Of a stretch of DNA of 64,000 nt, positions 13,210 through 56,706 are shown in pieces. The position numbers and the translations under genes were made by a program. The notes beneath the pieces are model-generated. The model had not been told where the DNA came from and made no database searches. It worked only from the letters and a program-made list of their open reading frames with translations. The stretch is from a virus. The stretch is taken from IMG/VR virus record IMGVR_UViG_3300008952_000012, positions 62,001 to 126,000 of that record, one strand, 5' to 3'. The first letter of the stretch is position 1. Each line of letters opens with the position of its first letter.

Positions 13210-13219
13210 TTCTTATGCC
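13210..13219 (-). promoter_or_regulatory. Candidate leftward promoter motif
   Basis: Read on the minus strand this is GGCATAAGAA, preceded by a T-rich stretch that is the tail of the terminator at 13221-13247. It lies about 57 bases upstream of the start at 13152. It is one of four copies of GG-C/T-ATAAG found upstream of leftward genes. No -35 hexamer is visible. Confidence 0.45.
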
Positions 13220-13220
13220 T

Positions 13221-13247
13221 AAAAAGGGGGGCGTTTTTGCGCCCCCC
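13221..13247 (-). terminator. Intrinsic terminator after metallophosphatase gene
   Basis: On the minus strand an 8-bp perfect stem GGGGGGCG/CGCCCCCC closes a CAAAAA loop and is followed at once by TTTTT. It lies 16 bases past the stop of the leftward gene ending at 13263. Confidence 0.9.
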
Positions 13248-13262
13248 GAGCCATATTAGGCT

Positions 13263-14036
13263 CTAATTAATGTGGATAGGGTCGCAGTAGACCGTGTCCG
13301 CTTTCACGGACAGATACCCAACGTCACCGTTGCGAAACAGAAGCGCTGCACAAAGCTGCCCACCGTGAACACACCCGAGGTCAAGACCTGTGGCGTGCTT
13401 GAACTTCTTGGGATTTCCATCTTGGTTCAGCCAGGGCTGGTGGCCAAAATAGACATGCCCGAATCTGTTGTCATACAGTTCGGCCCAGAAGACATCTCGG
13501 TCTGTCTCTTCCCCAAACGTGACCATAGAACCGGCATCGTCTACGAAGCGAATGAACATTGTTCTTTCCGCCCGCCGTCGTTGCTTGTTCGACAGTTCGC
13601 TTAGATCATCAGGCATCGTTTCCATTTTAGGAGTGATCCCGCCATGAACAACAGAGAAGCCGTCACGCTTCACGTAAGTAACGACCTTGAAGCGTAACCA
13701 ATCGCGAAGCTCCTGGTCTGTTGACTCCATGACTCCAGAGAGTTCAATGGAGCCCTTCATCTCCATAGCCTTCTCCACGTCTCCGGCTTCGGCCTTCTTC
13801 CAGAATCGAATGTTCTTCGACTCGTGGTTTCCCTGAACAACGGTCGCCAAGCTACCCATGTCACGTACGTACCGGAGCACTCCTGCACTATCCGGCCCCT
13901 TGTCAACGAGATCACCAACGAAGATAAACTCGTTCACCGCGTCATCTGTGGGCGTCATGAGCCGATCTATCGCGCCCATTAGCTCCTTGAGTTCTTTGAG
14001 ACATCCGTGGACGTCGCCAATGATTGCTTTTGCCAT
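13263..14036 (-). CDS. Calcineurin-like metallophosphatase (Ser/Thr phosphatase type)
   Basis: 257 residues from ATG 14036, chosen over the upstream start at 14078 because GGAGGAG lies just before it. The metallophosphoesterase metal-binding blocks are present: GDVHG (Asp8, His10), GDLVDKGP (Asp42) and GNHE (Asn70, His71). A later GHQPW block supplies another likely metal-binding His. Members of this family remove phosphate from proteins, nucleotides or nucleic acids using two metal ions; phage lambda encodes a protein phosphatase of this type. The substrate here is unknown. The gene overlaps the 3' end of the zinc-finger gene by 58 bases and is followed by an intrinsic terminator. Confidence 0.9.
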   Translation of the reverse strand: MAKAIIGDVHGCLKELKELMGAIDRLMTPTDDAVNEFIFVGDLVDKGPDSAGVLRYVRDMGSLATVVQGNHESKNIRFWKKAEAGDVEKAMEMKGSIELSGVMESTDQELRDWLRFKVVTYVKRDGFSVVHGGITPKMETMPDDLSELSNKQRRRAERTMFIRFVDDAGSMVTFGEETDRDVFWAELYDNRFGHVYFGHQPWLNQDGNPKKFKHATGLDLGCVHGGQLCAALLFRNGDVGYLSVKADTVYCDPIHIN

Positions 14037-14176
14037 TTCTCCTCCTTTACCAGTCCTGTGCCTGAGCACTTTGTGCATCTGTCAGAAGCCTCCTTTAGGC
14101 TACTTCCGTATCCGTTACAGTGACCACATTCAACGTACCCATACTTTTGGGGATTGAGCATTACTTCGAAATCCAT
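13979..14176 (-). CDS. Small DnaJ-type zinc-finger protein
   Basis: 65 residues. ATG 14176 follows AGGAGG. It has two CxxC pairs in DnaJ-like context: CGHCNGYG and CTKCSGTG. This pattern binds one zinc ion and is common in small phage proteins, which probably mediate protein contacts. The first gene after the terminator at 14249-14287, it has a candidate promoter 35 bases upstream and overlaps the phosphatase start by 58 bases. Confidence 0.8.
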   Translation of the reverse strand: MDFEVMLNPQKYGYVECGHCNGYGSSLKEASDRCTKCSGTGLVKEEKWQKQSLATSTDVSKNSRS

Positions 14177-14211
14177 ACCTTCCTCCTAAGGTTGTTGTGG
14201 GGCCTCCATAG

Positions 14212-14221
14212 TTCTTATGCC
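14212..14221 (-). promoter_or_regulatory. Candidate leftward promoter motif
   Basis: Minus-strand reading GGCATAAGAA, with GATAATAAT immediately before it. It lies 35 bases upstream of the start at 14176, between that gene and an intrinsic terminator of the preceding gene. That is exactly where a new transcript must begin. Confidence 0.5.
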
Positions 14222-14248
14222 ATTATTATCGTGTGATATTGCGCACAT

Positions 14249-14287
14249 AAAAAAAGAGAGGAGGCCTTCCGAAGAAGACCCCCTCTC
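14249..14287 (-). terminator. Intrinsic terminator after AT-hook gene
   Basis: On the minus strand, a GC-rich stem with two mismatches closes a TTCG tetraloop (CTTC TTCG GAAG at the top) and is followed by TTTTTTT. It lies about 30 bases past the stop at 14316. Confidence 0.9.
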
Positions 14288-14315
14288 TCACCACAACCCC
14301 GAAGGAGGACGGGGA

Positions 14316-15062
14316 CTACTTTACGTACTTGCTAGGATTAGGAATTCTTGTGAGATCCTTAATCATGTCATCATCCTCATCCACAATGAGTGTGTTGACG
14401 ACATAGACTAGCGCGTTCGCGAGTAGATTATTTGCGTCCGTCTGCTCCTGTCGAACAGCCTGTAGTTGGGCCTCAAGACTTGAGAGCCTATCCAACAGGC
14501 CGCTGACATCGAAAGCCTCTTGCACAACAGGTGCGCTAACAGACTCTACCTGAGCAGCTTCTTCCGCAGGTGTCTCAACCTTCTTGAAGCCCGTCTTAGC
14601 ACTCTTTTTAGTAGCCACAGCCTTTTTCTTTTTGGTTGCTGTTGCTTTCTTTGCAGGTGCTTTATTTTCCGCCGTAGCGTCCTTACGTGGCCTACCGCGC
14701 TTCCTCTTGGGAGGCGCAGCTTCAGGCTTTTCCGCCGTCTCTTCTTTGGCCTCGCTATCTTCAACATCCCCGTCTTCAGGTTCTGGCGGCCACTCAGGAG
14801 CGGTGCCGTCACCCAGAATAAACTTCTGTAGACGCTTGATGTACGGCCCAACGCCGCTGCGGAATGTGTCCTCGATCCCGACGCCACTGATGCTTAGGCC
14901 AGCGAATTCTTCCGCTCTCTCATGAATCCATGAGACTACCTCAGCTTCTTTCATCGTGTACGCGTCGAGAGGCTCAAGCCCCATTCCTACGATTGCAATT
15001 TTTCTCAATTCGGCACGGTCTAAAGGACCGAGCATTTTCTTTGTAAAGCGTTTAGTCGCCAT
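14316..15062 (-). CDS. Lys/Ala-rich AT-hook DNA-binding protein
   Basis: 248 residues from ATG 15062, which is preceded by GGAGG; the longer frame to 15101 lacks a site. A compact helical N-terminal domain (~1-70) is followed by an acidic stretch. Next come a classical AT-hook (KRKRGRPRKD) and a histone-H1-like Lys/Ala/Thr tract. The C-terminus is a leucine-heptad coiled coil (LLDRLSSLEAQLQAVRQEQ) with an acidic tip. AT-hooks bind the minor groove of AT-rich DNA. The architecture suggests an oligomeric nucleoid-like or regulatory DNA-binding protein. The particular process is not shown. It overlaps the preceding gene by 11 bases. Confidence 0.8.
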   Translation of the reverse strand: MATKRFTKKMLGPLDRAELRKIAIVGMGLEPLDAYTMKEAEVVSWIHERAEEFAGLSISGVGIEDTFRSGVGPYIKRLQKFILGDGTAPEWPPEPEDGDVEDSEAKEETAEKPEAAPPKRKRGRPRKDATAENKAPAKKATATKKKKAVATKKSAKTGFKKVETPAEEAAQVESVSAPVVQEAFDVSGLLDRLSSLEAQLQAVRQEQTDANNLLANALVYVVNTLIVDEDDDMIKDLTRIPNPSKYVK

Positions 15063-15342
15063 AGTTTTTTTCCTCCATAAGCTTGCTGTGACAATACACA
15101 ACTACGCCATCATGATGATTGTAACAATTACCATCACAAGGCAGTGATAGCTTGTTGCGGTTCTCCTTAATATACTCTGTTAACTTGTCTCTGATTGGGT
15201 TAAGGGCGCTGTTTGGGACTTCATCAGTCTTATACTGAAGAAAGTCGTGTAATTGCTCTACGGGGGTTGATGGGCACGCCCGGACTCCCATCTGTTCCCA
15301 TACGATGTGTAATAGCTCGCTTTTGTTTGTTTTCGGGTTCAA
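15052..15342 (-). CDS. Small protein with Cys/His-rich C-terminus
   Basis: 96 residues. The start is TTG at 15342, placed directly after the RusA stop (TGATTG) and supported by CAGGAG. The N-terminal half is helical (SELLHIVWEQMGVRACPST) and may form a small HeH/LEM-type helix bundle. The C-terminal half has a potential metal site (PCDGNCYNHHDG, then YCHSK). Function unknown. It is translated between the RusA-like resolvase and the AT-hook protein, which hints at a DNA-related role. Confidence 0.7.
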   Translation of the reverse strand: MNPKTNKSELLHIVWEQMGVRACPSTPVEQLHDFLQYKTDEVPNSALNPIRDKLTEYIKENRNKLSLPCDGNCYNHHDGVVVYCHSKLMEEKNYGD

Positions 15343-15774
15343 TCACAACTCCTGGATGCTAAATCGAATACCTACAAAGTCATTATCCGGCCCGTGGTGC
15401 TTTTTCACAAACTCTTCAATAAAGCACGAGTCGTCGATTGCCAAGCACTCAGCGATAACGTCCTCTAGCACCTTTACGAGGTTAGACACATCGCGCCGCT
15501 TATATCTAGTCTTCGCCTTCTTTGGCCATCCTTTATTGTACAATGATGGCAGAAAATAGTGAATATTCAATCGGTACGGGTGATCCGGGTTCAGCGGTTT
15601 TTTGCTGAAACCTACCTGCTTTGCTATTTGAACAGAGGCTCTCGCCTTGAACTGCTTCATTTTAGACGAAGGGCGTGGCCCACGTGTTGTGTAGACATAC
15701 ATGTCGTTTACCGATGGGGGGAGAATTGAAATCTCGGCCTCGAAAACAACAGTATTGTCGTCATTAATCTTCAT
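15343..15774 (-). CDS. rusA: RusA-like Holliday junction resolvase
   Basis: 143 residues, ATG 15774. It shows the RusA fold signature: an N-terminal PPSVNDMY block, then KRRDVSNLVKVLEDVI (residues 92-107) and LAIDDSCF (111-118). RusA cuts four-way DNA junctions using acidic residues and a lysine. Here Asp95, Lys101 and Asp115 are kept, but the second Asp of the usual D-x-D-N block is Ser97. It overlaps the helical gene upstream by 11 bases and sits at the end of a recombination gene run. It probably resolves branched replication or packaging intermediates. Confidence 0.85.
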   Translation of the reverse strand: MKINDDNTVVFEAEISILPPSVNDMYVYTTRGPRPSSKMKQFKARASVQIAKQVGFSKKPLNPDHPYRLNIHYFLPSLYNKGWPKKAKTRYKRRDVSNLVKVLEDVIAECLAIDDSCFIEEFVKKHHGPDNDFVGIRFSIQEL

Positions 15775-16336
15775 TCCCTATCCGTTTAAATGCCCCTGGG
15801 TATGATTTCGTAGACTGTTTAGGGGGGGATGTAAAAAAGTCTTCATCTCTGTCACTTTCGTTCTGGGTTCTAAACCATAGTTCTCTTCCGATCCTATCCA
15901 TACACTTGCTTACTTTCCGCTTCCGGTCTTCCTGGACGGCCAGCTTAGCCTTGAAGTACGTATAGTCGCGAAGCGCTCCGACGACGTCTGGGTCTGTTTC
16001 AACCGCTGCCTTTCTCTGATCCGAGTTTGTCAGCTTGGAGTCTGATGCGACACGCTTTGTCGCCTCGGCGCTCTTAAGCCCCAACCTAGCTTTGCTCACA
16101 GAGGAGTAACACGTATCCTGCGCAACCTGATCAGTGAGATAAGCATAGTAGGACAAGAACTCGTCGTATAGATCTTTTAGGAACCCATTTGACTTACTGC
16201 TCAGCCCCGGCGGGATAATTGGTTCCGTACCCGGTGGCTCTTTACTTGGAGAAAACCCGGTTACCCGGAGGTCTTCTTCTAACGTTTCTCGTAGGTCAAG
16301 GAAGAGGTCCCCTCCCTTGCTATTTTTTCCTGCCAT
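15764..16336 (-). CDS. Helical protein of recombination operon, possible mediator
   Basis: 190 residues, ATG 16336 after AGGGGG. A short N-terminal helix with EDL and a Pro-rich linker precede a long, mainly helical domain (~50-160; FLSYYAYLTDQVAQDTCYSS, then AVQEDRKRKVSKCMDRI). I do not recognise the family from motifs. Its size, helical core, charge pattern and position between RecA/nuclease genes and RusA resemble the UvsY-type recombination mediators that load UvsX in T4-like phages. This is analogy, not homology I can demonstrate. Confidence 0.7.
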   Translation of the reverse strand: MAGKNSKGGDLFLDLRETLEEDLRVTGFSPSKEPPGTEPIIPPGLSSKSNGFLKDLYDEFLSYYAYLTDQVAQDTCYSSVSKARLGLKSAEATKRVASDSKLTNSDQRKAAVETDPDVVGALRDYTYFKAKLAVQEDRKRKVSKCMDRIGRELWFRTQNESDRDEDFFTSPPKQSTKSYPGAFKRIGNED

Positions 16337-16355
16337 TTATCCCCCTTCCGGATGG

Positions 16356-17063
16356 TTAAAATTCTGGGTTGCACACATGGGCAAACTTGCATGTTCTACA
16401 AACCCACTTGTCCGGCTCTCGCGGAGGCTCAGTACCTTTCTCGATATGGCCCTCCACGTGCTTTATGACATCAAGAACGTCTTCCCAGACCGAGTTTTCA
16501 AACTTAATCTTGAAGAGCCTCATTGAGCCCGTGGCACGGTTTACATAAAGAAGCTGGCACCGTGGGATATCCAACGCAAACATGTATGCGTGGATTTGGT
16601 AGATGTGATCAACCTTCGGCTTTGTCAGGTTTCTGTAGACACTTTCGCCCACAGTCTTTATTTCCAGAACCCACTCTTTGTCGTAGAAAACCCCGTCGCA
16701 ATGACCGGCAATATGCAGGTCCTCAAAATTTACCGGGACCTCAGACTTAAAGTCATCAAACTTCTTTTCTAACTTCGACTGGATCATGTCATGCAGGGCG
16801 TGCCCCATGTCAAACAGCATCCGTAGGTCTGCCGGGATTCTGCTCTCTGGCTCTTCGCCAGTTCTGTCGTACCAAACTGCCCTTTTACAAGCACCGGGGT
16901 TTAATGAAGAGGGGTGGTAAACGTTTGTCTTCCTGCTCCACTCTTCTTTGTTCATCTCCTCGTGGAGAGTATCCAGCGCGTTTATTACATCAAAACTTTT
17001 ATCCCATTCCGGGGCCTCTTCCCTGAGGCACCTTTCTGGTATCTTGAATTTCTTCTTTGTCAT
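16356..17063 (-). CDS. Cas4-like PD-(D/E)XK nuclease with Fe-S cysteines
   Basis: 235 residues. It carries the RecB/Cas4 nuclease motifs: His88/His91 region, GHCDGVF (Asp123), LEIKTVG (Glu134, Lys136) and Gln156 (YQIHAY). Four cysteines are placed as in Cas4 and AddB, with Cys59 near the N-terminus and Cys222, Cys225, Cys231 at the C-terminus, and probably hold a 4Fe-4S cluster. The family degrades single- or double-stranded ends. Phage copies usually process DNA ends for recombination or attack host DNA. No cas genes lie nearby, so a recombination role fits best. The start overlaps the upstream stop by 1 base. Confidence 0.9.
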   Translation of the reverse strand: MTKKKFKIPERCLREEAPEWDKSFDVINALDTLHEEMNKEEWSRKTNVYHPSSLNPGACKRAVWYDRTGEEPESRIPADLRMLFDMGHALHDMIQSKLEKKFDDFKSEVPVNFEDLHIAGHCDGVFYDKEWVLEIKTVGESVYRNLTKPKVDHIYQIHAYMFALDIPRCQLLYVNRATGSMRLFKIKFENSVWEDVLDVIKHVEGHIEKGTEPPREPDKWVCRTCKFAHVCNPEF

Positions 17064-17824
17064 CAGATTCCCTTTGCGAACTCAAGAAACTTCTCATAGC
17101 TCATAAGAATGTATTCGTTGGAGTTGGCTGTAAATGTTATTCCAGCCCCAGATAGAAGCTTCTGTACGTGATGCAGAGTCACGGTAAAGCTTTTCTTTGG
17201 CGGCCTACCGCCAAGAGCCCTGACCTCAGAAAACGAGGACAGGTGGCTTTCTTCGAGTTCCTGCTTTGGAACAATGGCGATTTCCCCGCCTTTTCGTAAT
17301 TCAATAATATAAGCTGGGACCTTGCCCTGTGAGTAAGCCTGCTTCCTCAGAAAATCCAAGTCTTTAAGGCTCAGGCTGACGCGGTCGGACTTAGTCGTCT
17401 TTGCCTCTACAAGGATGCTCGGCGTCACGACATCTCTTTTATAGCCCCACCGAGATCCGGATGCTGGTTGCCGCTTACCATCGAGGTCGTCAGCGATTCT
17501 AGTTTCTTGCTTTTTGCTTATCTCGTGGTTTGTTAGCACGGCTTCAGCCTCCTCTATTACAATGTAATAGTTCTTGTTTTCGTATATTTCCCCGGCAACC
17601 TTGGTCCAGTCTATCCGCCCCAAGATCATTCTTGCTAACTCTAAAAACTTCTCTGGTACATGTGCGAGGACCGCAAGGCCACTGCTTACGTGCGTAATGT
17701 TATAATCAGATTCCGTGCGCGCACCGCCAGGGGTCTTATGCATAAAGAGCCCGGGCAGAAACGGCAGCGCATCGATTAGTACAAACTTTCCTTGCGGCCC
17801 CGTACATATACTAAGTCTAGCCAT
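17063..17824 (-). CDS. Hjc/RecU-like PD-(D/E)XK endonuclease
   Basis: 253 residues from ATG 17824; a longer frame reaches 17860 but would overlap RecA further and has no ribosome site. The central block (GSRWGYKRDVVTPSILVEAK, then TTKSDRVSLSLKDL) has the nuclease pattern: Asp, then E-x-K on a beta strand, then a Ser-rich turn, as in Holliday-junction resolvases Hjc and RecU. A conserved A-x-x-x-GK-x-P segment follows. It overlaps the end of the RecA gene by 8 bases. A junction or branched-DNA endonuclease partnering RecA is likely. The N-terminal ~110 residues are not recognised. Confidence 0.75.
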   Translation of the reverse strand: MARLSICTGPQGKFVLIDALPFLPGLFMHKTPGGARTESDYNITHVSSGLAVLAHVPEKFLELARMILGRIDWTKVAGEIYENKNYYIVIEEAEAVLTNHEISKKQETRIADDLDGKRQPASGSRWGYKRDVVTPSILVEAKTTKSDRVSLSLKDLDFLRKQAYSQGKVPAYIIELRKGGEIAIVPKQELEESHLSSFSEVRALGGRPPKKSFTVTLHHVQKLLSGAGITFTANSNEYILMSYEKFLEFAKGI

Positions 17825-18866
17825 CAGCGGTTCTTTCCAGTACGGCTGCTCTGACTTCATTGACCAGCTTCGGGGAAGACTCTAAGACCTTAACTACACC
17901 CTCGATGCCGCCCTCAATTTTATCCTCGTAATCAAGGATGTAGTAAAAGCGCCCCTTGTTGAACACGACGTTGTGGGCCTTGGCGCTGTTAGCTAGGTCT
18001 ATAATCATGTCTACGCCCTCATTAAACATGAATACGTATTCACCCTCAGCGCCCTCAGAGATGCCGTGCTTACCCTTACTAATCTTCCACTTGACTTCCT
18101 TGCCGACCTTTTTGCCACTCTTTTTAATAAACGCACCTGAGCGTAGATGAATATCTACCGCTTTGGCGTGCTTTAAAGCGTAACCACCGGGCTGGGTGAA
18201 TGGGTTGTACTTAGCGGAGTGCGCATTCATGTTTGCTCTGACCGGGTTGATCATCACAACGCATGTCTTGTTTGGACCCTCCTCGCCGGGGACACGCATG
18301 GCGGAGTAGAACTTCCGACAGAAGTTACTCAGAAGACTTGCCCACGTAGCGATTTTAGCGTCCTCACCAAGGCCTTTTACGACGTTGTCTCTGGTTTCAC
18401 CGGAGCCCAATTCGTTGATCACTAGAAGCTGAAACTTCTGGGACCGCACGATCTCAAGCATAACGTCTAGCATCACCTCTGCGGGCTTCTCGGAATCTTC
18501 AGCAGCTAGGTCAACGAACATGAAGTTGCCTACCCCAGATAGCTGAACACCCGCTAGCTCCATGAATGATGGGTCAGGTTTGTACCCAAAAGACATCCAC
18601 GCGATGTTGGCGTCGTTTTTGTACTTACGTTGAACTTCGGCAATTACGAGATTGGACAAGTAGTCCTTACCAACCCCATCAGGACCGAAAAGCTGAACCA
18701 TTGATCCTGCCGGTAGCCCACCTTTCAGAGCTATATCAAGTGACAATATCCCAGTTGGGAGTCTAGTATCGAACGGGGTAGCCACCTCAGACATCGGTTG
18801 GATGACCGCTGCTCCCCCCATTCTTTTCTGTACGCTCTTAATTAGTTGGCTAATGTCGTCGGCCAT
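17817..18866 (-). CDS. recA: RecA/UvsX-like recombinase with altered Walker A
   Basis: 349 residues, ATG 18866 after GAGGAG and overlapping the upstream stop (TAATG). It has RecA-core features: a Walker A loop GPDGVGKD at residues 61-68, a Walker B-like strand (FQLLVINELG) and a loop-2/C-terminal block (NPFTQPGGYALKHAKAVDI). RecA proteins form filaments on single-stranded DNA and exchange strands using ATP. The usual Ser/Thr after the P-loop lysine is Asp68 (codon GAC). This is rare and may alter Mg-ATP binding. Neighbouring nucleases and resolvases support a role in recombination-dependent replication and repair. Confidence 0.9.
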   Translation of the reverse strand: MADDISQLIKSVQKRMGGAAVIQPMSEVATPFDTRLPTGILSLDIALKGGLPAGSMVQLFGPDGVGKDYLSNLVIAEVQRKYKNDANIAWMSFGYKPDPSFMELAGVQLSGVGNFMFVDLAAEDSEKPAEVMLDVMLEIVRSQKFQLLVINELGSGETRDNVVKGLGEDAKIATWASLLSNFCRKFYSAMRVPGEEGPNKTCVVMINPVRANMNAHSAKYNPFTQPGGYALKHAKAVDIHLRSGAFIKKSGKKVGKEVKWKISKGKHGISEGAEGEYVFMFNEGVDMIIDLANSAKAHNVVFNKGRFYYILDYEDKIEGGIEGVVKVLESSPKLVNEVRAAVLERTADG

Positions 18867-19111
18867 TATTCCTCCTCTAGCTCCTTCTTCAATTTCTCAA
18901 ACTCAGCGTTGAGGGTAGGGCTAATCTCGTCCAAGTTTTCGTCATAGAGCTTTCGCATGTCATCAAATAGTTTCTTCTTAAAGCCCTTTATCATGCCAGG
19001 GGCCTCACCAGAGGCCACCTTCTCCATAGCGTCGTCTTCTGTTTCACACAGCTTCATCTTTATGAGCGTGGCTATCACTTGGGACGAATCCCCATATTTA
19101 GTCATTGACAT
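18866..19111 (-). CDS. Small acidic coiled-coil protein before RecA
   Basis: 81 residues. ATG 19111 is preceded by AAGGGG; a second in-frame ATG lies at 19105. The C-terminal third (LNAEFEKLKKELEEE) is a short acidic coiled coil. Its stop overlaps the RecA start by one base, so the two are probably translationally coupled. Family not recognised. Confidence 0.75.
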   Translation of the reverse strand: MSMTKYGDSSQVIATLIKMKLCETEDDAMEKVASGEAPGMIKGFKKKLFDDMRKLYDENLDEISPTLNAEFEKLKKELEEE

Positions 19112-19373
19112 TGGTCACCCCTTTATTAGCAAGTCTTCCCAAAGTAACCTCACGCTCTGACACAATCGCCAGTGCATGGTCTTTTCCGATAACCCCAAGG
19201 TTTACCGTCAGGTATGCTCCGTTGGATAACTCAATAATCGCTGAATCATCTCCGGAGCACAAGAATACGTTTGAGATAGCATCCCCCTCCTGCAAGCATG
19301 TGTTTACCGCGCCGACAATTTCTCGTAGGGATTCGCGCTTAACATCGAAAATATTTCCGAGTTCCTCATTCAT
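19098..19373 (-). CDS. Nested in-frame product: C-terminal domain of GIY-YIG fusion
   Basis: 91 residues from ATG 19373, in the same frame as the GIY-YIG gene. AAAAGGAG lies six bases upstream and would make this a strong independent start. The protein begins MNEELGNIFDVKRES and contains beta-rich repeats (SAIIELSNGAYLTVNLG). Its 3' end overlaps the next gene by 14 bases. Function unknown. It may be the ancestral operon gene onto which the GIY-YIG domain became fused by loss of a stop codon. Confidence 0.55.
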   Translation of the reverse strand: MNEELGNIFDVKRESLREIVGAVNTCLQEGDAISNVFLCSGDDSAIIELSNGAYLTVNLGVIGKDHALAIVSEREVTLGRLANKGVTNVND

Positions 19374-19610
19374 AACTATCTCCTTTTGACTTCTCGTCTT
19401 TTGTTTAATCTCCCACTCAGCGGCGGAAGCCTTTGATCTATTAGGGTACCCTCTTGAGTAGAGCAACCTAACAGGTCTTCTAGATCTTGTATATCTTGCT
19501 CCACGCTTGGAGTTATTATGCTCCCAGATGCGCCTACCTACGTCGGTTGTTACACCAGCGTAGATAGACCCATCTGAGCACGAAGCTAAATATACAAACC
19601 AAATTCCCAC
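19098..19610 (-). CDS. GIY-YIG endonuclease domain fused to second domain
   Basis: 170 residues. Residues 3-78 are a complete GIY-YIG domain of the YhbQ/UPF0213 kind: FVYLASCSDGSIYAGVT, then GRRIWEHN (Arg27, His31), GARYTRSRRPVRLLYSRG and the catalytic Glu65. Such enzymes cut one or both DNA strands. A stand-alone YhbQ protein would end about where Met80 falls here, but the frame continues into an unrelated ~91-residue acidic domain that has its own ribosome site (next entry). Homing-type activity is not indicated, because no intron or split gene is nearby. Confidence 0.8.
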   Translation of the reverse strand: MGIWFVYLASCSDGSIYAGVTTDVGRRIWEHNNSKRGARYTRSRRPVRLLYSRGYPNRSKASAAEWEIKQKTRSQKEIVMNEELGNIFDVKRESLREIVGAVNTCLQEGDAISNVFLCSGDDSAIIELSNGAYLTVNLGVIGKDHALAIVSEREVTLGRLANKGVTNVND

Positions 19611-19612
19611 TA

Positions 19613-19948
19613 TTACTCCGGGAGAAGCGAAAGCTGCCTTGGGGGTGGTGGGATAAGCTCCCAGACCGTAGCCCCTCTACCGCTTCGCGTAGGCCTTCGA
19701 TTGCCGCTGTCTCGTATGTGTCCGGACAGAACTAGCTCCCGTCTCCGAGCGCTTGCCGTCTGGTGGCGCATATCAAGAGCCGCCTCTACCTCATCATCCG
19801 TAGCGCCCCGAGTACCAGCCTCCTTAATAAAGGCCAGAACTTTGAACCGGAGCGTAGAAGACGATGTCTCTATAGAATCGGCTGCTGCCTCGCTTGTATC
19901 TGAACCTCTTACATATGGGGGTCTGCCCCCGTAAAGGTCATTACTCAT
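19613..19948 (-). CDS. Winged-helix DNA-binding protein
   Basis: 111 residues, ATG 19948. The N-terminus (NDLYGGRPPYVRGSDTSEAA) and the winged-helix core (GATDDEVEAALDMRHQTASA, then RRRELVLSGHIRDSGNRR and SGRGATVWEL) match a small protein widespread in tailed phages, generally found in replication operons. It probably binds DNA as a wHTH. The last residues, RQLSLLPE, resemble sliding-clamp-binding peptides (QLxLF type), though no clamp gene is in the window. It overlaps the upstream gene by 4 bases. Confidence 0.8.
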   Translation of the reverse strand: MSNDLYGGRPPYVRGSDTSEAAADSIETSSSTLRFKVLAFIKEAGTRGATDDEVEAALDMRHQTASARRRELVLSGHIRDSGNRRPTRSGRGATVWELIPPPPRQLSLLPE

Positions 19949-20136
19949 TCTCCCTCCTCATCTAGTTGTTCCCCCGTTTGTATTTCAAAATGCTTTATTT
20001 CTCCAGTGGAGAGGCACTCCACGGAGGCTACAGTTTCTTCATCTCTAATTCTGCTTAATGAGTTGCTAAGGGCTTCTCTGAAGCCATCGGCCTTAAGCTC
20101 TTCTTCGATTATTACACGGTAATGAAGCTCCATCAT
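19945..20136 (-). CDS. Small acidic protein, unknown function
   Basis: 63 residues from ATG 20136, chosen because GAGGAG lies five bases before it and the ATGA overlaps the upstream stop. It has a beta-alpha-beta pattern (ELHYRVIIEEELKADGFREA, then EIKHFEIQTGEQ) and an acidic end. Part of the tight operon following the DNA polymerase gene; no family recognised. Confidence 0.7.
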   Translation of the reverse strand: MMELHYRVIIEEELKADGFREALSNSLSRIRDEETVASVECLSTGEIKHFEIQTGEQLDEEGE

Positions 20137-20396
20137 ACATTCTCCTCGTAGTAGTGGAGTGCAGTTGGGGCCCACAGCGTGATGCCATCATCCAACTCCC
20201 TGTAGGTGGGGTCTTCGTGCTTTACCGCTACGGTTTTTCTAGTCGTTACTTCGCCATCAATGGTCGTCTGGAAATCCTTAAACCCCACCACGACCCCAAA
20301 AAGCCCCGGCGAGTAGGTGCATCCGACTTTATCACCGATGACAAACTGGGCATTAATAGGGACTCGGACCAGTACGGTGTTCTCTGCTTCCATCAT
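20133..20396 (-). CDS. Small beta-rich protein following DNA polymerase
   Basis: 87 residues. ATG 20396 overlaps the polymerase stop by 4 bases. It is predicted to be mostly beta strands (TVLVRVPINAQFVIGDKVGC, then GLFGVVVGFKDF), perhaps an SH3-like barrel. Function unknown; coupling to the polymerase suggests a replication accessory role. Confidence 0.7.
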   Translation of the reverse strand: MMEAENTVLVRVPINAQFVIGDKVGCTYSPGLFGVVVGFKDFQTTIDGEVTTRKTVAVKHEDPTYRELDDGITLWAPTALHYYEENV

Positions 20397-22282: not shown

Positions 22283-22298
22283 GCTCACCTCCTTGGTG

Positions 22299-25915: not shown

Positions 25916-25924
25916 GCTCCCTCC

Positions 25925-26646: not shown

Positions 26647-27078
26647 CTAGCTCACCTTGATCTTGATCTCCGAGGGACCGTTGACTCTAGGTGTTCCAAG
26701 TACCTTTTCACGGAACTTGTTGACCTGATCAGCGTTAAACTGTCCAGAGATCAAGCCCTGCTCAATGGCCTTGTTGTTGATTTTTCCGATAACCCCGGGG
26801 GTAGTCAAAACCTCCATGGGGAGATCGTGAGCAGTGTAGTCCCAAGACTCGGGAGCCTTTTGTCGGGTAAAGGAACCAATAGTCAAAGAGTCGTTACCCT
26901 CTACGGATTTCAAAGCAGCTTTGGCTTCTTTGTGTAGAGCGTTGTACCGCTCGGCAAGGTCATAAAGAATATCGAAAGTCTTTTGGTGATCATCGATAAA
27001 CTCAGCCACTGCGGTTCGCGCTTCTTCAAAACGGTTGCAGGCTTCCTCAGCCTTCTTTCTTGTACTTCTGTAGCTCAT
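26647..27078 (-). CDS. Helical protein of replication block, unknown
   Basis: 143 residues, ATG 27078 after AAGGAGG. Predicted long N-terminal helices with charged residues (~1-60) and a mixed C-terminal part (LPMEVLTTPGVIGKINNKAI). No cysteine motif, P-loop or membrane segment. Strong ribosome site and tight packing between neighbours support a real gene. Function unknown. Confidence 0.75.
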   Translation of the reverse strand: MSYRSTRKKAEEACNRFEEARTAVAEFIDDHQKTFDILYDLAERYNALHKEAKAALKSVEGNDSLTIGSFTRQKAPESWDYTAHDLPMEVLTTPGVIGKINNKAIEQGLISGQFNADQVNKFREKVLGTPRVNGPSEIKIKVS

Positions 27079-27089
27079 TTGTGTCCTCC

Positions 27090-27743
27090 TTAGACGTTGA
27101 ACTGTTTTGCCACATCAAGGGCGTCCCTGATGTTTCCAATTGTCTTATTCCACATACCTCCGACGTTTTGTGACGGGTTGCGGAACAGTTGATTGATTGA
27201 TGGCAGAACCATCATGGGAACCGGGTATTCAACCAAGTTTCCCTGTATGAAAGCTTCTGTCACCCTTCCACGCGCATCTGACAGCGATGTGGGCCTCGTC
27301 GTAACGCCCTTCATGGCGGCGCTCCCAAAGGCTAAGATGACGTGTGGCTCAATTATGTTTATCTCCGCATGCAAGCGTTCTTGGCAAGCGGATATCTCGC
27401 CCGTCTTTGGTGCGGGTAGCATTTCTATTCGCCCACGAGTTCTCGGGCTTAAGCTAGCGCTAGGGCAAGAGACGACGGGGGTGACCCACACGTAGCTTGG
27501 GTCTATCCCGGAGCGCTTGAAAAGCGATGAGAGAAACTTCCCCTCACCGCCATCAAGCGGGTTCCCCGTAACGGCTGCTCTTGGGCTTACGCGGTCAACT
27601 ACCGCTACAATTTTAGTGTGTATTTTCCCCCGACCACTGATCATAACCTTTCGGTTCTTGTGGAGCGGGCACGCCGAGCAACCCCTGTATTCAAAGAGCA
27701 CGGCGTCAATCTTCTCTTCCAATGCTCTTGTGTTTGAATCCAT
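27090..27743 (-). CDS. Uracil-DNA glycosylase-like Fe-S protein
   Basis: 217 residues, ATG 27743, overlapping the helicase gene by 38 bases. It has the four cysteines expected for the Fe-S cluster of family 4-type uracil-DNA glycosylases (Cys22, Cys25, Cys93, Cys120) and the family core strand VILAFGSAAMKGV. The normal catalytic motif (GExPG) is replaced by VDRVSPRAA. The C-terminal HP motif region reads VLPSINQLFRNPS and lacks the His. It may bind rather than repair uracil DNA, or have another activity. Confidence 0.75.
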   Translation of the reverse strand: MDSNTRALEEKIDAVLFEYRGCSACPLHKNRKVMISGRGKIHTKIVAVVDRVSPRAAVTGNPLDGGEGKFLSSLFKRSGIDPSYVWVTPVVSCPSASLSPRTRGRIEMLPAPKTGEISACQERLHAEINIIEPHVILAFGSAAMKGVTTRPTSLSDARGRVTEAFIQGNLVEYPVPMMVLPSINQLFRNPSQNVGGMWNKTIGNIRDALDVAKQFNV

Positions 27744-29136
27744 TTGCTAAAATCTTCCGGCGTAAGTTTCTACACATAGCCCCTGCTGGGCCAAATTTAT
27801 AATCGTCGATTACAACTACAATTGGTTCCTTTTTGTTTGGGTATCGTCTTTCGATCCTACCCTTACCTTGCTGAAAAGAGCCCCAGGCCTTGAACGGCGT
27901 AGCAAAAACAAGCGTGTCTAGCGCGGAAACATCCAAACCCTCCCTGGCTATGCCGAAGGTCGCAAACGTTACGTTGCTATCACGAATTACTTTTGTGCGC
28001 ATATCACCTGAGGTGTCCCCAGTGACAACACCGGCTGTATACCTTTCCATACAGTGAGTGTCGAGCAACTTTCGCAAAAGTATGTCGGGGTGGTCTTTAC
28101 TGTGGGTAAGGACTAGGATTTTTCTTCCCTTCCCCAAAGCGTCGTATACGACTGAAAGGATTTCCCTGTTTCGGGTCCCAGACTTTGAGAAGTATGTGTA
28201 CATTTTACCGGCAGAAAATTCCCCGGTAATATCACGAATTTCCGACGCGTCCTTTGGCATGGTTGTCCCAACCTTCTTAAAGAAGATCTTGGCCTCAAGG
28301 TCGCCAACGAGATCGCTATGGAATATTGGTCCAATATGCGAGTAGTAGACGTCCTCAAGACCATCTTCCCTTACGGGGGTTGCGGTCAATCCGTATCTAT
28401 TACCGTAAAATAAAGGAGCCGTTTGGCTGAATGTGGACGCGGACAGGTGATGAACTTCATCAAAAATCACGGTCCCAAATCTAGCCCTGATCTCCTGGGG
28501 TACATCGTGCGCTCTTTTGGACAGCGTGTGTATCATTGCTAGTACCAGGGGCTTGTCCCATTCTTCTTTTGGGCCCTGCACGATGCCTATATCACTCTCC
28601 TGTATACCCAGGAACTCTAGCGCCCGTTCTTTCCATTGGTCCATTAGCCCAGAGTTGTTAACAATGACTATGGCTGGGTAGCCTCTTTCTGCTATCTTTT
28701 TTAGAGCGAGTACAGTTTTTCCCTTGCCACAGGCTAGGTTCAAAACCCCAAAAGATTGCTTTTTGAAGGCCTCCCAGGCGATTTTTTGATCTTTGTCTCT
28801 GGGGGTAATTCTATCCCCAAAATCAAACTTCTCAAGAGAATCACTGAGCGGAAGCTCCGTCCAGTGTCCTATTTTAGATTTCCACTCTTCTTCTGTAAAA
28901 AAGTGTCGAGCTATTACTACGTAATCCCCAACCTCCCTTGCGAGTGGATATGTATTAGTATCTCCTGTCCGTTCATTAACCGATACGATCTTTGCAGCGT
29001 TTATTAGCGCTGATTTGTTTGGGATGTCCTCAGAAGGTATCCACATCCAAGCCGAACGATATGATCCGGAAAGGGACTTGCCTGAATCGGACTCGGGAAA
29101 ATAAACCTTGTCCGAGTTCTTCTTCTTGTTAGCCAA
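27706..29136 (-). CDS. SF2 DNA helicase (DEVH box)
   Basis: 476 residues. The start is TTG 29136, supported by GGAGG six bases upstream. Motifs in order: ACGKGKT (Walker A, 135-141), DEVH (226-229), LTATP (250-254), a second RecA-like domain with LVLTHSKDH, and QGKGRIERR (motif VI). The layout resembles UvsW/RecG-like phage helicases that remodel branched DNA or R-loops. With the RecA, resolvases and Cas4-like nuclease of the same block, a role in recombination-dependent replication or repair is likely. Confidence 0.9.
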   Translation of the reverse strand: MANKKKNSDKVYFPESDSGKSLSGSYRSAWMWIPSEDIPNKSALINAAKIVSVNERTGDTNTYPLAREVGDYVVIARHFFTEEEWKSKIGHWTELPLSDSLEKFDFGDRITPRDKDQKIAWEAFKKQSFGVLNLACGKGKTVLALKKIAERGYPAIVIVNNSGLMDQWKERALEFLGIQESDIGIVQGPKEEWDKPLVLAMIHTLSKRAHDVPQEIRARFGTVIFDEVHHLSASTFSQTAPLFYGNRYGLTATPVREDGLEDVYYSHIGPIFHSDLVGDLEAKIFFKKVGTTMPKDASEIRDITGEFSAGKMYTYFSKSGTRNREILSVVYDALGKGRKILVLTHSKDHPDILLRKLLDTHCMERYTAGVVTGDTSGDMRTKVIRDSNVTFATFGIAREGLDVSALDTLVFATPFKAWGSFQQGKGRIERRYPNKKEPIVVVIDDYKFGPAGAMCRNLRRKILANGFKHKSIGRED

Positions 29137-29137
29137 G

Positions 29138-29578
29138 TCAGTCCTCCAGTATTTTTGTTATGTTTTGTCGAATAAAGTATTCGATACTGTCCGTCCTTTT
29201 TCCGTCCAGGTTCTCAAAGAAGAGGTTAAGTAGCCGGTCTACCTTGTCGGCATCCACCTCAGTTTCAGTAATAAACTTCTTAAGTTCGGAATTTGCTGAT
29301 GGTCCAAATGCCCGTTTTTTGGCTAGTTTTTTGTCGCTTCTCTCTTTGCAGACAGAGGCTATAATCTGCTTAGCCTCCTGATCCACATCGGGGTCCACGT
29401 TTAGCGCCACGAACATTTTCATTAGGCTTTGGTTGGAGGGAGCCGAACCGCCAGATTCATACAGGCGGACGGTTTCCCTACTCAGGCCACATTCGGTCGC
29501 GAACTGCCTAGAGGAGTACCCTCGCTCCGTTCGCATCCTTTGGAGCATGGCCCCAAAGTGGTTTACTTTTTCTCCCAC
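29138..29578 (-). CDS. XRE/Cro-type helix-turn-helix regulator
   Basis: 146 residues. Start GTG 29578 follows GAGGAG, which also spans the upstream stop. Residues ~8-60 form a Cro/C1-type HTH (LQRMRTERGYSSRQFATECG, then LSRETVRLYESGGSAPS). The C-terminal half is helical and charged. Being the second gene after the divergent region at 29875-29960, it is well placed to control that region, though I see no clear operator repeats. Confidence 0.88.
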   Translation of the reverse strand: MGEKVNHFGAMLQRMRTERGYSSRQFATECGLSRETVRLYESGGSAPSNQSLMKMFVALNVDPDVDQEAKQIIASVCKERSDKKLAKKRAFGPSANSELKKFITETEVDADKVDRLLNLFFENLDGKRTDSIEYFIRQNITKILED

Positions 29579-29580
29579 AG

Positions 29581-29874
29581 CTACTCCTCATCATCATCGG
29601 ATTCCCCGCCGTCTTGACAGCTATCTTTGTATACGACAAGATCTTCTTTGTCACAAGTTTCTTCCTGGTCAAGAAGGTGTTGATCTGAATCTTCTGGATT
29701 TGCGAGTTGCTTTGACGTGTTATTATTTCCTTGTGATCGGAGTTGATTGGAAATGGAAGACAGCATATCGGCTAAGCCGTCTATAGCTATCTCAAGGAAG
29801 TCTTTTCCTTGCGGGTCCTGTAACTCCTTTGGTACTTCTACTTTAATGGTATATCTATTATCATCAGTTGACAT
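29581..29874 (-). CDS. Acidic protein, first gene of leftward block
   Basis: 97 residues from ATG 29874, nine bases after GGAGG; a longer frame to 29982 would cross the divergent promoter region and lacks a site. It has a beta-rich N-terminus (YTIKVEVPKEL) followed by a strongly acidic, probably disordered tail ending ESDDDEE. First gene of the leftward replication block. Function unknown. Confidence 0.72.
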   Translation of the reverse strand: MSTDDNRYTIKVEVPKELQDPQGKDFLEIAIDGLADMLSSISNQLRSQGNNNTSKQLANPEDSDQHLLDQEETCDKEDLVVYKDSCQDGGESDDDEE

Positions 29875-29920
29875 GTTCACTAGCCTCCGGGTTTGGTGTA
29901 ATTGAGTGTGGGTAGCATGG

Positions 29921-29930
29921 TGCTTATACC
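29921..29930 (-). promoter_or_regulatory. Candidate leftward promoter motif in divergent region
   Basis: Minus-strand reading GGTATAAGCA, preceded by TTTTT. It lies 46 bases upstream of ATG 29874. On the plus strand the same bases could also serve as a -10 (TATACC), 17 bases after TTGAGT and 30 bases before the rightward start at 29961. A shared or overlapping divergent promoter is possible. Confidence 0.5.
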
Positions 29931-29960
29931 AAAAAGCTAATAGCCCTTGTGGAGAACGGC

Positions 29961-31010
29961 ATGACAGAATTTTCAGGTACATACGACCATTACGACGATA
30001 ACGGCCTTTTGCTCCGAAAGGAGATGGGCGAGAAAGGGATTCCCCCTGTGATCAAGACCGCTGCTGATTTATCGAATCCAGCAACGAGGCATGAGGGGGA
30101 TTACGCGGTTGTCGCGGAGACACAGCGGGGGGTTGCTTACAAGTATCCAGTATCAGATGCTGGAAACGCTGTAGCGTCTGCCGTATATTTTTCTGAGTAC
30201 GGGCACAAACTCCCGCAAGAACTCAGAAAGACCGCAGCAGCAGCCATTAATGAAGCCCTCTCTGGTTTCGGGTTTACGCCCCCGGAGGACCTTACCAAGA
30301 CAGCCTCGATGGAACTTGGTTACAGCGGAGAGGGGGACAACATGTCTCTTGAAAAGCTGTTTGGTGTTGGCGGCGAAGACGACCCAATGGAGGTTGTGGA
30401 AGACGCTTTTTCCAAGCTGAGCCCCCGTGGCAAGAGCCGATTGGCCATGCAGGTCAAGGAGGCCGGTCTGCTTGAGAACGCCCCGGAAGAGCTTTCTGAC
30501 TACTTGTCGCGAGACATCCCCGGAGTTGGGCCTAACTTTGACACTGCTGTTGACACCCGGAAGCTTGTCCTCTTGGACGCAAACGCTTCGGAGGAGCTAG
30601 ACGAGCTTCAAAAGACATCGCAGTCTAAGTTTCTTAACCCAGAAGCCGTTGCGGAAGAACTTTCCCTGTTTGACCAAAAGCACCAGATCACGCATTTGTA
30701 TGATCGCGTAATAATCGATCCATGGAAAGCGGTTCACAGCGAGTCTGAAAAGACGGCTTCTTACGGGATTAAGATTGACGCTGACCAAATTAGTGATGCT
30801 GTTGACAGTTCTAAGGTTGTTGAAATCAACGGTAAAGAGTATACATCTGACGCAATTAATTCCTGGACCAACGATTCTGGGGCAGAAAAGCTGACCGACG
30901 CCTTTGGCGAAGAGTTCGCTAATGAATTCAAGGAAGACCCTGCGGTTGTTCTTGAGAGCCTCCCGGTTACTCACAGGAATGCAATAGCGCGGATGATTGA
31001 TGATAACTGA
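29961..31010 (+). CDS. Putative virion protein, first gene of structural block
   Basis: 349 residues from ATG 29961, six bases after GGAG; the GTG at 29949 overlaps that site. Acidic, mixed helix/strand protein with four Lys-Thr-Ala tripeptides (IKTA, RKTA, TKTA, EKTA), a motif shared with other virion genes here. No enzymatic motif. Its position before the portal gene suggests a head or packaging component. It overlaps the next gene by 11 bases. Family not recognised. Confidence 0.75.
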   Translation: MTEFSGTYDHYDDNGLLLRKEMGEKGIPPVIKTAADLSNPATRHEGDYAVVAETQRGVAYKYPVSDAGNAVASAVYFSEYGHKLPQELRKTAAAAINEALSGFGFTPPEDLTKTASMELGYSGEGDNMSLEKLFGVGGEDDPMEVVEDAFSKLSPRGKSRLAMQVKEAGLLENAPEELSDYLSRDIPGVGPNFDTAVDTRKLVLLDANASEELDELQKTSQSKFLNPEAVAEELSLFDQKHQITHLYDRVIIDPWKAVHSESEKTASYGIKIDADQISDAVDSSKVVEINGKEYTSDAINSWTNDSGAEKLTDAFGEEFANEFKEDPAVVLESLPVTHRNAIARMIDDN

Positions 31011-31674
31011 TAGCGCCACACAACCTGCCAGGGAACAGGAGCCGATTCGAGCGGCCTTTACAAACAAGGATATCCACCCGCTTGTTCTAAACCTGATCCT
31101 GGTCAAAGAATTTGGACCGGAGTATCTTTCTTGGGAACCTGAGACATGTTGGGTAGAAATATCTAAAACGTGGAACTCAACGGTTTCTGAGGTAAACAGG
31201 AACAAAATCCAAGCAGTTCGCACGTGCCACACTACGGACCAGCCGTACGAAAGATGGGAAGTGTTTGATTCTGTTTCACTGGGACTCCTTGGTGTGCCAC
31301 CGAAATTCGACTTAATCCAGAAGCCGACTCCACACCGAGCGGCTTTTGCGTTAGAGGTGCTGTCCCAGATAAAAGAAAGCCGGAAGGTCTCAGATGAGGT
31401 GTATAGGTACGTATCTGCATGCATGCTGGACTACGGCATGGTTTTCGGCACCGGCCCTTTAAGTCCGTGCAATAAAATAATGGCTACGCTATTAGATCGG
31501 CATGGGAGGTCTCAGCAGGCCTCCGTTGGGGAAGCGATTCGAGAAAGCAAGCAGCCCACATTTGATGGAAATAGCGATAGCGACGTCCAGCTTATGAAAA
31601 CTTTGTCTGTTAAAGACTTCCTTGAGGGCACGTCAAGGATGCTTCTCATACAGCTAAAGAAGCATCTTTCGTAG
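31000..31674 (+). CDS. Protein preceding portal, unknown
   Basis: 224 residues from ATG 31000; a TTG one codon earlier is the alternative. It overlaps the upstream gene by 11 bases and ends 12 bases before the portal gene. Mostly helical, with no recognised motif. Its position in the head-gene order is one where adaptor or small packaging proteins can occur, but nothing in the sequence confirms this. Confidence 0.72.
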   Translation: MITDSATQPAREQEPIRAAFTNKDIHPLVLNLILVKEFGPEYLSWEPETCWVEISKTWNSTVSEVNRNKIQAVRTCHTTDQPYERWEVFDSVSLGLLGVPPKFDLIQKPTPHRAAFALEVLSQIKESRKVSDEVYRYVSACMLDYGMVFGTGPLSPCNKIMATLLDRHGRSQQASVGEAIRESKQPTFDGNSDSDVQLMKTLSVKDFLEGTSRMLLIQLKKHLS

Positions 31675-31686
31675 GGAGCGATTACT

Positions 31687-33708
31687 ATGGCGTATGGAAA
31701 TGACCGGTCGGGACGACACACTCTCGGGAGCAGATCTCGCGCAAAAACAATTGGGCGTCCCGAGTCTTTTTACCCCAGCCCATTCTTTGACGTAGCGCAG
31801 AATTATCTACCAAAGACCATCAAAGAGACCTTTGACTGGTGCCTGTACTACCAACTAACAAACCCACTCATCAGCGCCGTTACTAGCAAGCTGGCAACTT
31901 ACCCAATCACTGACCTTATCTATGAGGATGACAATGAGGGTTTGGTTGAAATGTATCGGGACATGTTCGAGGGGCAGTTTTTGCTTCGGCAGTTCCTCAT
32001 CGAAACAAACCTAGACAGGTACACTTACGGAAACGCTTTTGTGTCCGTCTCGTTCCCGTTCAAAAAGACCCTTAAGTGTAAGCACTGCAGCGCTACAAAG
32101 CCTGCCAAGGATATCAAGTACAAATGGAAGAACTTTAGATTCCACATCACGTGCGACAGTTGCCTCCAGAGCGGCGTAGCCGAGGTCAAGGACGAACACA
32201 TAAAGTCCGCTAAGCAGATCAGGCTTATTCGTTGGAACCCTAAGAGTATTACCGTAAAATACAACGAAGTAACTGGAGCTAGTCAGTACTACTATTCGAT
32301 GCCAAGGCACATGCGTAACGACATTATGCTTGGCAAGCCTTCAATGGTTGAGACCATCCCACAGGTTTTCATAGAGGCGCTCAGGAAAAAGAAGTCGATC
32401 CTCTTAGAAAGCTCCAAACTGTTCCACTGCAAGAGAGCCGCGATTTCCCGTGACCCGTCCGATAGTGGGTGGGGTGCTCCACTAATCCTTCCTGTTTTGA
32501 AAGACATATTTTTCTTGCAGGTTCTCAGAAAAGCACAAGAAGCCGTTGCCCTTGAGCATATTGTCCCCATGAGGGTGATGTTTCCCCAGGTAACCACTGA
32601 CGGAAACAACCCCTACGCCCACGTCAATCTCCAGGACTGGCAGAACGAGGTTGTGGGTCAGATAAAAAAATGGCGGATGGACAATAACCACATACCGGTT
32701 ATGCCCGTTCCTGTTGGCTATCAAATGATTGGTGGGCAGGGGAAGTCGCTCCTTCTCCATCAAGAACTGCGCGTATATAACGACCAAATAATTGCTGGCA
32801 TGGGCGTCCCCACCGGGTTTTTCTATGGTGAGCAGCAGTACTCTGGCGCATCCGTCAACATGCGGGCGCTTGAAAATGAGTTTCTCGGGAACCGTCAGGA
32901 CATGCTCAGGCTTGTAGAGTTTGTAAGAGATCGTGTCTGCGCGTTCTTAGACATGCCGAAAATGACGCTGAAGTTTAAGCCGTTCAAGATGGCTGACGAT
33001 ATTCAGAGAGCGTCGTTCGACATGAATTTGGCCAACGCCGGGATGATTAGTAGGCGCAGCTTCTTGGAGTCTCGTGACTTTAACTTTGACACTGAGCAGG
33101 AGCTTATTCACGAAGAAGGCAAGAAGCTCAATAGAGCCCAACGAGAAGGTATGATTTCCAACGCCGAGTCTCAGGGCGAAGCGATGCTTATCAATACCCG
33201 ATACCAAATCCAGTCCCAAGAGCTTCAAATGGAAGCCCAGCAGCAGCAACAGGCCAGCGGGCTGATGCCACCACAGCAACCCGGCCAACCCGGCCAACAG
33301 GCTGGCCCGCCGCCAGGACCGCCTCAGGAGGGGGCTCCCCCGGAAGCAGCGCAGCAACCGGGGCAAGAGGGTGGTGCCCCGCCGCCCGAGCAGCAACAGG
33401 CAAGCGGTCAGCCGCCGCCTGAGCAAGGGGCACCACTTCCCCCAGAAGCGGGTGTAGACCAAAGCCCTGTCGGCGCAGGAAACACCGGGCAGATGGTTGA
33501 CCTGTTTGCGCAAGCCAAGCGGCTTACGGCGCAGATAAAGAAAATGGCGGAAGTAGATAGATACCGGGCGCTGGCACAGTTACGTGCCAGCAATCCCGAT
33601 ATCTATATGCTTGTAAACAACGCTCTATCTGGTGCTGGCATAAAGACCATGCAGCAGTTACCCGAAAAGCTTCCTCCTAGGGCAAACCCAGACAGGGCAC
33701 AAATTTAG
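31687..33708 (+). CDS. Portal protein with zinc-ribbon insertion and PQ-rich tail
   Basis: 673 residues, ATG 31687 after GGGAG. The core (residues ~30-510) fits a tailed-phage portal: YYQLTNPLISAVTSKLATYP early, a long helical middle, and PTGFFYGEQQYSGASVNMRA, typical of the region before the crown helix. A CxxC/CxxC pair (Cys131, Cys134, Cys156, Cys159) is inserted in the wing region and probably binds zinc. Residues ~510-615 are a Pro/Gln-rich linker, followed by a short helical C-terminus. The portal forms the 12-subunit DNA gate of the head. Capsid, protease and terminase genes lie in the same block. Confidence 0.88.
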   Translation: MAYGNDRSGRHTLGSRSRAKTIGRPESFYPSPFFDVAQNYLPKTIKETFDWCLYYQLTNPLISAVTSKLATYPITDLIYEDDNEGLVEMYRDMFEGQFLLRQFLIETNLDRYTYGNAFVSVSFPFKKTLKCKHCSATKPAKDIKYKWKNFRFHITCDSCLQSGVAEVKDEHIKSAKQIRLIRWNPKSITVKYNEVTGASQYYYSMPRHMRNDIMLGKPSMVETIPQVFIEALRKKKSILLESSKLFHCKRAAISRDPSDSGWGAPLILPVLKDIFFLQVLRKAQEAVALEHIVPMRVMFPQVTTDGNNPYAHVNLQDWQNEVVGQIKKWRMDNNHIPVMPVPVGYQMIGGQGKSLLLHQELRVYNDQIIAGMGVPTGFFYGEQQYSGASVNMRALENEFLGNRQDMLRLVEFVRDRVCAFLDMPKMTLKFKPFKMADDIQRASFDMNLANAGMISRRSFLESRDFNFDTEQELIHEEGKKLNRAQREGMISNAESQGEAMLINTRYQIQSQELQMEAQQQQQASGLMPPQQPGQPGQQAGPPPGPPQEGAPPEAAQQPGQEGGAPPPEQQQASGQPPPEQGAPLPPEAGVDQSPVGAGNTGQMVDLFAQAKRLTAQIKKMAEVDRYRALAQLRASNPDIYMLVNNALSGAGIKTMQQLPEKLPPRANPDRAQI

Positions 33709-33939
33709 CTATGTATTTTGAGTTGCTATCAGTATTGCGGACATCTCGTTGCATCTATCGCACCTACCTCTCTGGTAGAACGATGAAGGATGGTCCTCTT
33801 GTTTGATACAACGAGAACATACCCACGCAACGCAACCTGTATTCTCAATGAAGTGAATACATTCGCCGCAGTTTCTGGGTTCGTTACACCAGATCCCAGC
33901 AACATCACAGGCAATGGCTTTTGGTGCGCGGGTACTCAT
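33709..33939 (-). CDS. Cysteine-rich small zinc-binding protein, antisense to block
   Basis: 76 residues, ATG 33939, weak AGGTAG site. Nine cysteines, several paired (CGEC, CSRC, CDRC), suggest two small zinc knuckles. It runs leftward between the rightward portal and polymerase genes, its stop lying one base past the portal stop. It appears to form a two-gene unit with the 39-residue gene upstream. Function unknown. Reality is supported by the ordered cysteine pairs and by the lack of any good rightward gene in this 445-base gap. Confidence 0.65.
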   Translation of the reverse strand: MSTRAPKAIACDVAGIWCNEPRNCGECIHFIENTGCVAWVCSRCIKQEDHPSSFYQRGRCDRCNEMSAILIATQNT

Positions 33940-33951
33940 TTAGTTAACTAC

Positions 33952-34071
33952 CTAGTTGCAGGGTACGAGTGCGCCATTAACGGCGTTCGCAAACTCCGCG
34001 CACGTACTCAAGTAAACGGTTTTCGTCACAGTTCTTGTGTAAATCCTACTAAGATTTTGTACAAGTTTCAT
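33952..34071 (-). CDS. 39-residue peptide upstream of Cys-rich gene
   Basis: ATG 34071 follows AAAGGAG at good spacing; stop TAG at 33952-33954. The product begins MKLVQNLSRIYTRTVTK and ends GALVPCN, with two cysteines. It lies 39 bases downstream of a candidate promoter and just before the Cys-rich gene. No known family. The strong ribosome site and promoter make it more credible than its length alone would. Confidence 0.55.
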   Translation of the reverse strand: MKLVQNLSRIYTRTVTKTVYLSTCAEFANAVNGALVPCN

Positions 34072-34110
34072 ATCGCTTCTCCTTTTTGTTTAGGGCAGTA
34101 TTACCCATAA

Positions 34111-34120
34111 TTCTTATACC
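34111..34120 (-). promoter_or_regulatory. Candidate leftward promoter motif
   Basis: Minus-strand reading GGTATAAGAA, preceded by CGTATTA, 39 bases upstream of the start at 34071. It sits in the short divergent gap between the leftward mini-operon and the rightward RNA polymerase gene (start 34154). Confidence 0.5.
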
Positions 34121-56701: not shown

Positions 56702-56706
56702 TTACT

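Follow-up and report, generated by a model that had tools for sequence, protein, structure and literature searches.

A putative -35/-10 promoter class upstream of leftward genes in an uncultured phage that encodes a single-chain RNA polymerase and a sigma70-family factor

Judging from its sequence context, a short motif, GGYATAAG, that recurs upstream of leftward genes in a stretch of viral DNA is almost certainly part of a promoter. The stretch, hereafter called the window, is 64,000 bases long and corresponds to bases 62001-126000 of the 134,529-base record IMGVR_UViG_3300008952_000012, in which genes were called mechanically; positions are those of the window unless the record is named. The motif would serve as the -10 element of a promoter of the sigma type, from which the leftward genes would be transcribed. 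It is probable that this promoter is read by the phage's own holoenzyme, composed of a single-chain RNA polymerase (RNAP) and a sigma factor of the type of gp10 from Salmonella phage Arash, a pairing that we infer.

The leftward motif and its upstream box

The initial annotation had pointed to four sites of the extended form GGYATAAGMA (13210-13219, 14212-14221, 29921-29930 and 34111-34120), and all of them were found at exactly these positions on the minus strand. Only 0.47 matches are expected in the window, and four or more were obtained in 0/100 shuffles. The whole record contains seven matches, all on the minus strand (reversed control pattern, 0/1). The seventh, at record position 53896, looks like a chance occurrence, since it has no start codon downstream and lies inside a long rightward open reading frame (ORF). 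Measured from the end of the 10-mer, the four sites in the window are 57, 35, 46 and 39 nt from a leftward start codon, in agreement with the gap of 35-57 bases originally described. Their placement next to terminators or divergent gaps was also confirmed, two sites lying right after intrinsic terminators and two in divergent gaps.

The same annotation had stated that these sites share no common -35, which proved to be wrong: GCAA or a near match (GCAAAA, GCAATA, ACAAGG and GCTAAC, respectively) is present 19-20 nt before ATAAG at 4/4 sites. When the distance from GCAA to ATAAG was scanned on the minus strand of the record, 7 of 97 ATAAGs had GCAA at 20 bp, with at most one at any other distance listed; in the relatives, 47 occurred at 19 bp and no more than nine at any other distance. 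No comparable peak was seen on the plus strand. The layout is therefore bipartite, with GCAANN, 17-18 nt, ATAAG within GGYATAAG, and TG five bases further on. A scoring matrix trained on other contigs only, with strong sites defined as those of at least 15 bits, found ten strong sites on the minus strand of the record and none on the plus strand, against 0.4 expected from shuffles; inside the window these are the four sites above and two more, at 15233 and 27148. Because the GCAA peak at a fixed distance and the independent matrix scan agree, we consider the motif a bipartite promoter, with the two boxes, the fixed spacing of 16-18 bp and the location upstream of transcription units that are typical of sigma-dependent promoters.

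The element is conserved among relatives encoding the RNAP that neighbours the 34.1-kb site. In an alignment of 75 loci at the spot equivalent to this site, ATAAG is kept even in many phages of 60% GC whose RNAP is only about 40% identical; TG follows five bases after it, and GCAA often precedes it at a fixed distance. The pattern GCAAN{19,20}ATAAG is present in 31/31 records of uncultured relatives, matching 262 times where the reversed control matches 24 times, with a strong strand bias in most of them. A DNA-level search found no close cultured relatives.

More distant cultured phages carry the same signal. Arash resembles the phage of the window in having a homologous RNAP and sigma and the same motif upstream of leftward genes; it differs in that its RNAP is encoded as two genes (gp206 and gp216, the homologous sigma being gp10), in a second sigma, gp196, and at the -35 position, where no GCAA box is found but a weaker CC..AA. 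GGYATAAG occurs 30 times on the minus strand of its genome and once on the plus strand. The initial annotation had held that the promoter reading would fail if the motif were no more frequent between genes than within them. The reading withstands this test, with the motif placed just upstream of starts: 25/30 of the minus-strand copies in Arash fall within 20-70 nt upstream of an annotated start, whereas the same holds for 5.6% of randomly chosen positions and for 7/123 of the other minus-strand ATAAGs. An unbiased scan of 7-mers upstream of starts ranked GGTATAA first on the minus strand of Arash (p 5e-18), and in Vibrio phage D69 it ranked GTTATAA first and TTATAAG third.

Rightward genes are preceded on the plus strand by another strand-specific motif, TAAAATA, which is over-represented there in both D69 (p 2e-12) and Arash (p 1.5e-5). 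In the Arash divergent gaps at 109282, 137660 and 139441 it sits immediately beside the leftward element, with CTTATACC leading into CTAAAATA or TTAAAATA; this arrangement suggests competition or a switch. A search for a rightward motif particular to the record of the window gave none. The plus strand of Arash also has an intergenic element, cattcgtaatatataaagggtacctaatcttaTATAAGGGTCTTG, repeated four times (positions 26744, 66491, 138594 and 173368 of its record).

The RNA polymerase, the sigma factor and the reader of the promoter

The earlier suggestion that the promoter is read by the phage's polymerase, or by a host enzyme in modified form, gained support from the finding that this phage encodes both a bacterial-type RNAP and a sigma70-type factor. 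The RNAP gene (34154..40423, plus strand) encodes a single chain of 2089 amino acids in which the beta domains precede those of beta'. The catalytic NADFDGD is intact near residue 1420, and a segment aligns to bacterial beta' through the clamp helices. In bacteria, sigma region 2 docks on the clamp helices of beta'. The match to this RNAP spans 7.4-8.9 kb instead of the usual ~6.3 kb in relatives L053, L058, L062-L064, L068, L073, L075-L077 and L087, suggesting insertions (an intron, an intein or a homing gene) inside the RNAP gene of these phages.

Weak sigma matches in the relatives pointed to a conserved protein of 255-340 amino acids, whose orthologue lies in the record at 34543-35442, outside the window. 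Its Sigma70 region 3 scores above the Pfam cut-off (3e-8), while regions 2 and 4 are weak alone; profile matches to the solved SigA and RpoS sequences reach 1.5e-13 and span regions 2-4. The conserved regions 2, 3 and 4 that characterize the sigma70 family could thus all be recognized. The predicted fold matches sigma factors, with moderate model confidence and an uncertain domain arrangement. A profile search detected this sigma in 21/23 records carrying the homologous RNAP, and in the phage collection it was found only in Arash, D69, D148 and D181, all carriers of that RNAP. Other sigma candidates were set aside: searches with the sigmas annotated in Arash (gp196) and in D69 found no homologue in the record, the right relative being Arash gp10, and strong matches in a few records (L090-L094) correspond to other, non-conserved sigmas.

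In the Arash particle, mass spectrometry detected gp206, gp216 and gp10, the RNAP chain gp206 having the highest spectral counts of all; the authors suggested either early transcription or carry-over, and promoters are not mentioned in their paper (PMC10585845).

In the mechanism proposed here, the clamp helices of the RNAP would be bound by region 2 of the sigma, which would also melt YATAAG; GCAANN would be contacted by region 4, and transcription would start near TG. By analogy with Arash, the RNAP and the sigma would be made together with late proteins, packaged and injected; packaging in the phage of the window is thus proposed from a virion location published for the Arash homologues only. 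Once injected, they would start the leftward (early, replication) genes without the host RNAP. We infer this timing of leftward transcription, as well as the start site. Rightward genes would use another promoter class, TAAAATA in D69 and, more weakly, in Arash.

Some observations weigh against reading by the RNAP and gp10-type sigma. The predicted sigma model has a pLDDT (predicted local distance difference test) score of 69.7, of moderate confidence only, and 2/23 of the RNAP records have no detected sigma. Arash and D69 encode a second sigma (gp196 in Arash), a possible alternative reader, and the particle mass-spectrometry signal may partly reflect carry-over, as the Arash authors noted (PMC10585845).

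The main competing explanation keeps the promoter class and assigns it to the core enzyme of the host, redirected by the phage sigma, leaving the phage RNAP for other promoters such as TAAAATA. It must be taken seriously, being in line with the usual behavior of phage sigmas, which redirect the host core as in T4 and SPO1, with the bacterial type of the sigma70 regions and with a second motif class on the rightward strand. We nevertheless regard it as a possible but rather doubtful alternative, as the RNAP and the sigma co-occur in 21/23 records, both are present in Arash particles, and the phage RNAP retains the segment where sigma docks in bacteria. It is unlikely that the phage RNAP reads the promoter with a second sigma of the gp196 type, or with another specificity subunit, in place of the gp10 type. 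The second sigma of Arash and D69 and the unrelated specificity subunits used by the AR9 and phiKZ RNAPs (PMC13282480) would allow it; however, the window's record, which may be a fragment, has no second-sigma homologue, and it is the gp10 type that is conserved with the RNAP and the motif.

It is very improbable that these are ordinary promoters for the host sigma70 whose -10 box merely deviates from the consensus. YATAAG is similar to TATAAT and the boxes are normally spaced, but a G replaces the strongly conserved last T, GCAANN is unlike TTGACA, and the same motif is found across phages of very different GC content. The sites have GCAANN and YATAAG in place of TTGACA-N17-TATAAT, and host sigma70 promoter scans gave no clear excess of host-type sites in the leftward regions. 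Least probable of all is that the motif is no promoter and works in the mRNA leader, on translation or on the stability of the message: hairpins do often lie directly downstream, yet such a role would fit neither a fixed-spacing upstream box able to lie inside a terminator hairpin, nor sites straight after terminators, nor a site just before a tRNA gene.

These downstream hairpins amount to no more than a trend, which is most marked in the close clade, where 14/30 leaders have z below -1.5. They often begin at the presumed transcript start, for example at record 7402 and window 34117, and perhaps shield the mRNA 5' end.

Individual sites and the genes they serve

All six candidate promoters in the window are on the minus strand, and the first five described below end in the conserved TG. 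The highest-scoring one (34106..34141, 30.7 bits) diverges from the RNAP gene and has a weak -35, GCTAAC, 18 nt before the ATAAG within GGTATAAG; it is kept ~34 bp before the RNAP in nearly all relatives with at least 69% identity, and downstream lies an ORF of 39 amino acids with a ribosome-binding site (33952..34071, minus strand). The promoter at 29916..29950 (ACAAGG, 17 nt, ATAAG within GGTATAAG; 25.6 bits) precedes the leftward replication operon, whose first gene encodes 97 amino acids (29581..29874, minus strand) and which contains helicase, DnaB-like, primase, DNA polymerase and UvsX-like genes. This operon and many small genes belong to the leftward set of the record; rightward genes include the RNAP, terminase and structural genes.

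The promoter at 14207..14242 (GCAATA at 14242-14237, 18 nt, ATAAG within GGCATAAG; 23.2 bits) lies just after an intrinsic terminator (14254..14289, minus strand) and upstream of an ORF of 65 amino acids (13980..14177, minus strand). At 13205..13240 (20.1 bits), GCAAAA (13240-13235) is followed after 18 nt by ATAAG within GGCATAAG (13219-13212) and by TG (13206-13205), and the ORF downstream encodes 129 amino acids (12763..13152, minus strand). Here the terminator of the upstream gene (13226..13247, minus strand) and the promoter are merged over 13204-13247, with the -35 box GCAAAA forming the terminator loop and the T-run falling in the promoter spacer. A similar merger is seen, by appearance, at record 6693.

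We are less sure of the two further candidates, which lie inside coding DNA. The one at 15222..15256 (GCAATT, 17 nt, ATAAG within AGTATAAG; 18.1 bits) has an identical sequence in two relatives (G002 and G006); the weaker one, at 27137..27171 (17.7 bits), is ~60 nt before a start at 27078. The genome is densely coding except for ~8 kb at record 54,030-62,300 (through window position 320), where only small ORFs are predicted and one promoter-like site occurs (record 59266).

Relation to known phage transcription systems

In T4 late transcription (gp55) and in SPO1 (gp28 and gp33/34), phage sigmas redirect the host core RNAP. As in those systems, a phage sigma would confer new promoter specificity here; the difference is that the phage of the window encodes its own core, and the motifs are not the same. 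The virion RNAP of N4 is a T7-like single-subunit enzyme that reads hairpin promoters; it shares with the present proposal an injected RNAP acting on early promoters, but its fold is unrelated.

The multisubunit RNAPs of the jumbo phages phiKZ and AR9 are closer, being phage-encoded bacterial-like enzymes with dedicated promoters, whose virion form delivers early transcription, and the system of the window may function like the phiKZ virion RNAP. However, their beta and beta' are split over four or more chains, compared with one of 2089 amino acids here and two in Arash, and they are described as accompanied by no sigma homologue (PMC7824862, PMC13282480), whereas a recognizable sigma70-family factor, found in 21/23 records, and a -35/-10 promoter go with the RNAP described here. 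Since reviews describe the jumbo-phage multisubunit RNAPs as lacking sigma homologues, the sigma-accompanied phage RNAP is a new variant relative to them. Our literature search, mostly of open-access papers, found no report of the motif as a phage promoter.

With known phage multisubunit RNAPs described without sigma, promoter finding by virion RNAPs has remained largely open. A fused RNAP with a recognizable sigma and a clear promoter code, together with a relative in culture, Arash, makes sigma-dependent, host-independent transcription directly testable, and dozens of uncultured phages can have their transcription units annotated by the rule that the motif provides. The chances are about even that a widespread lineage of phages of roughly 120-195 kb packages in its virions a complete holoenzyme of bacterial type that depends on sigma, a single-chain beta-beta' with a sigma70-type factor, having its own -35/-10 promoter class and making early transcription independent of the host RNAP. 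This would perhaps be a compact two-protein transcription system independent of that of the host and, if true, the equivalent in phages of the system by which bacteria initiate transcription.
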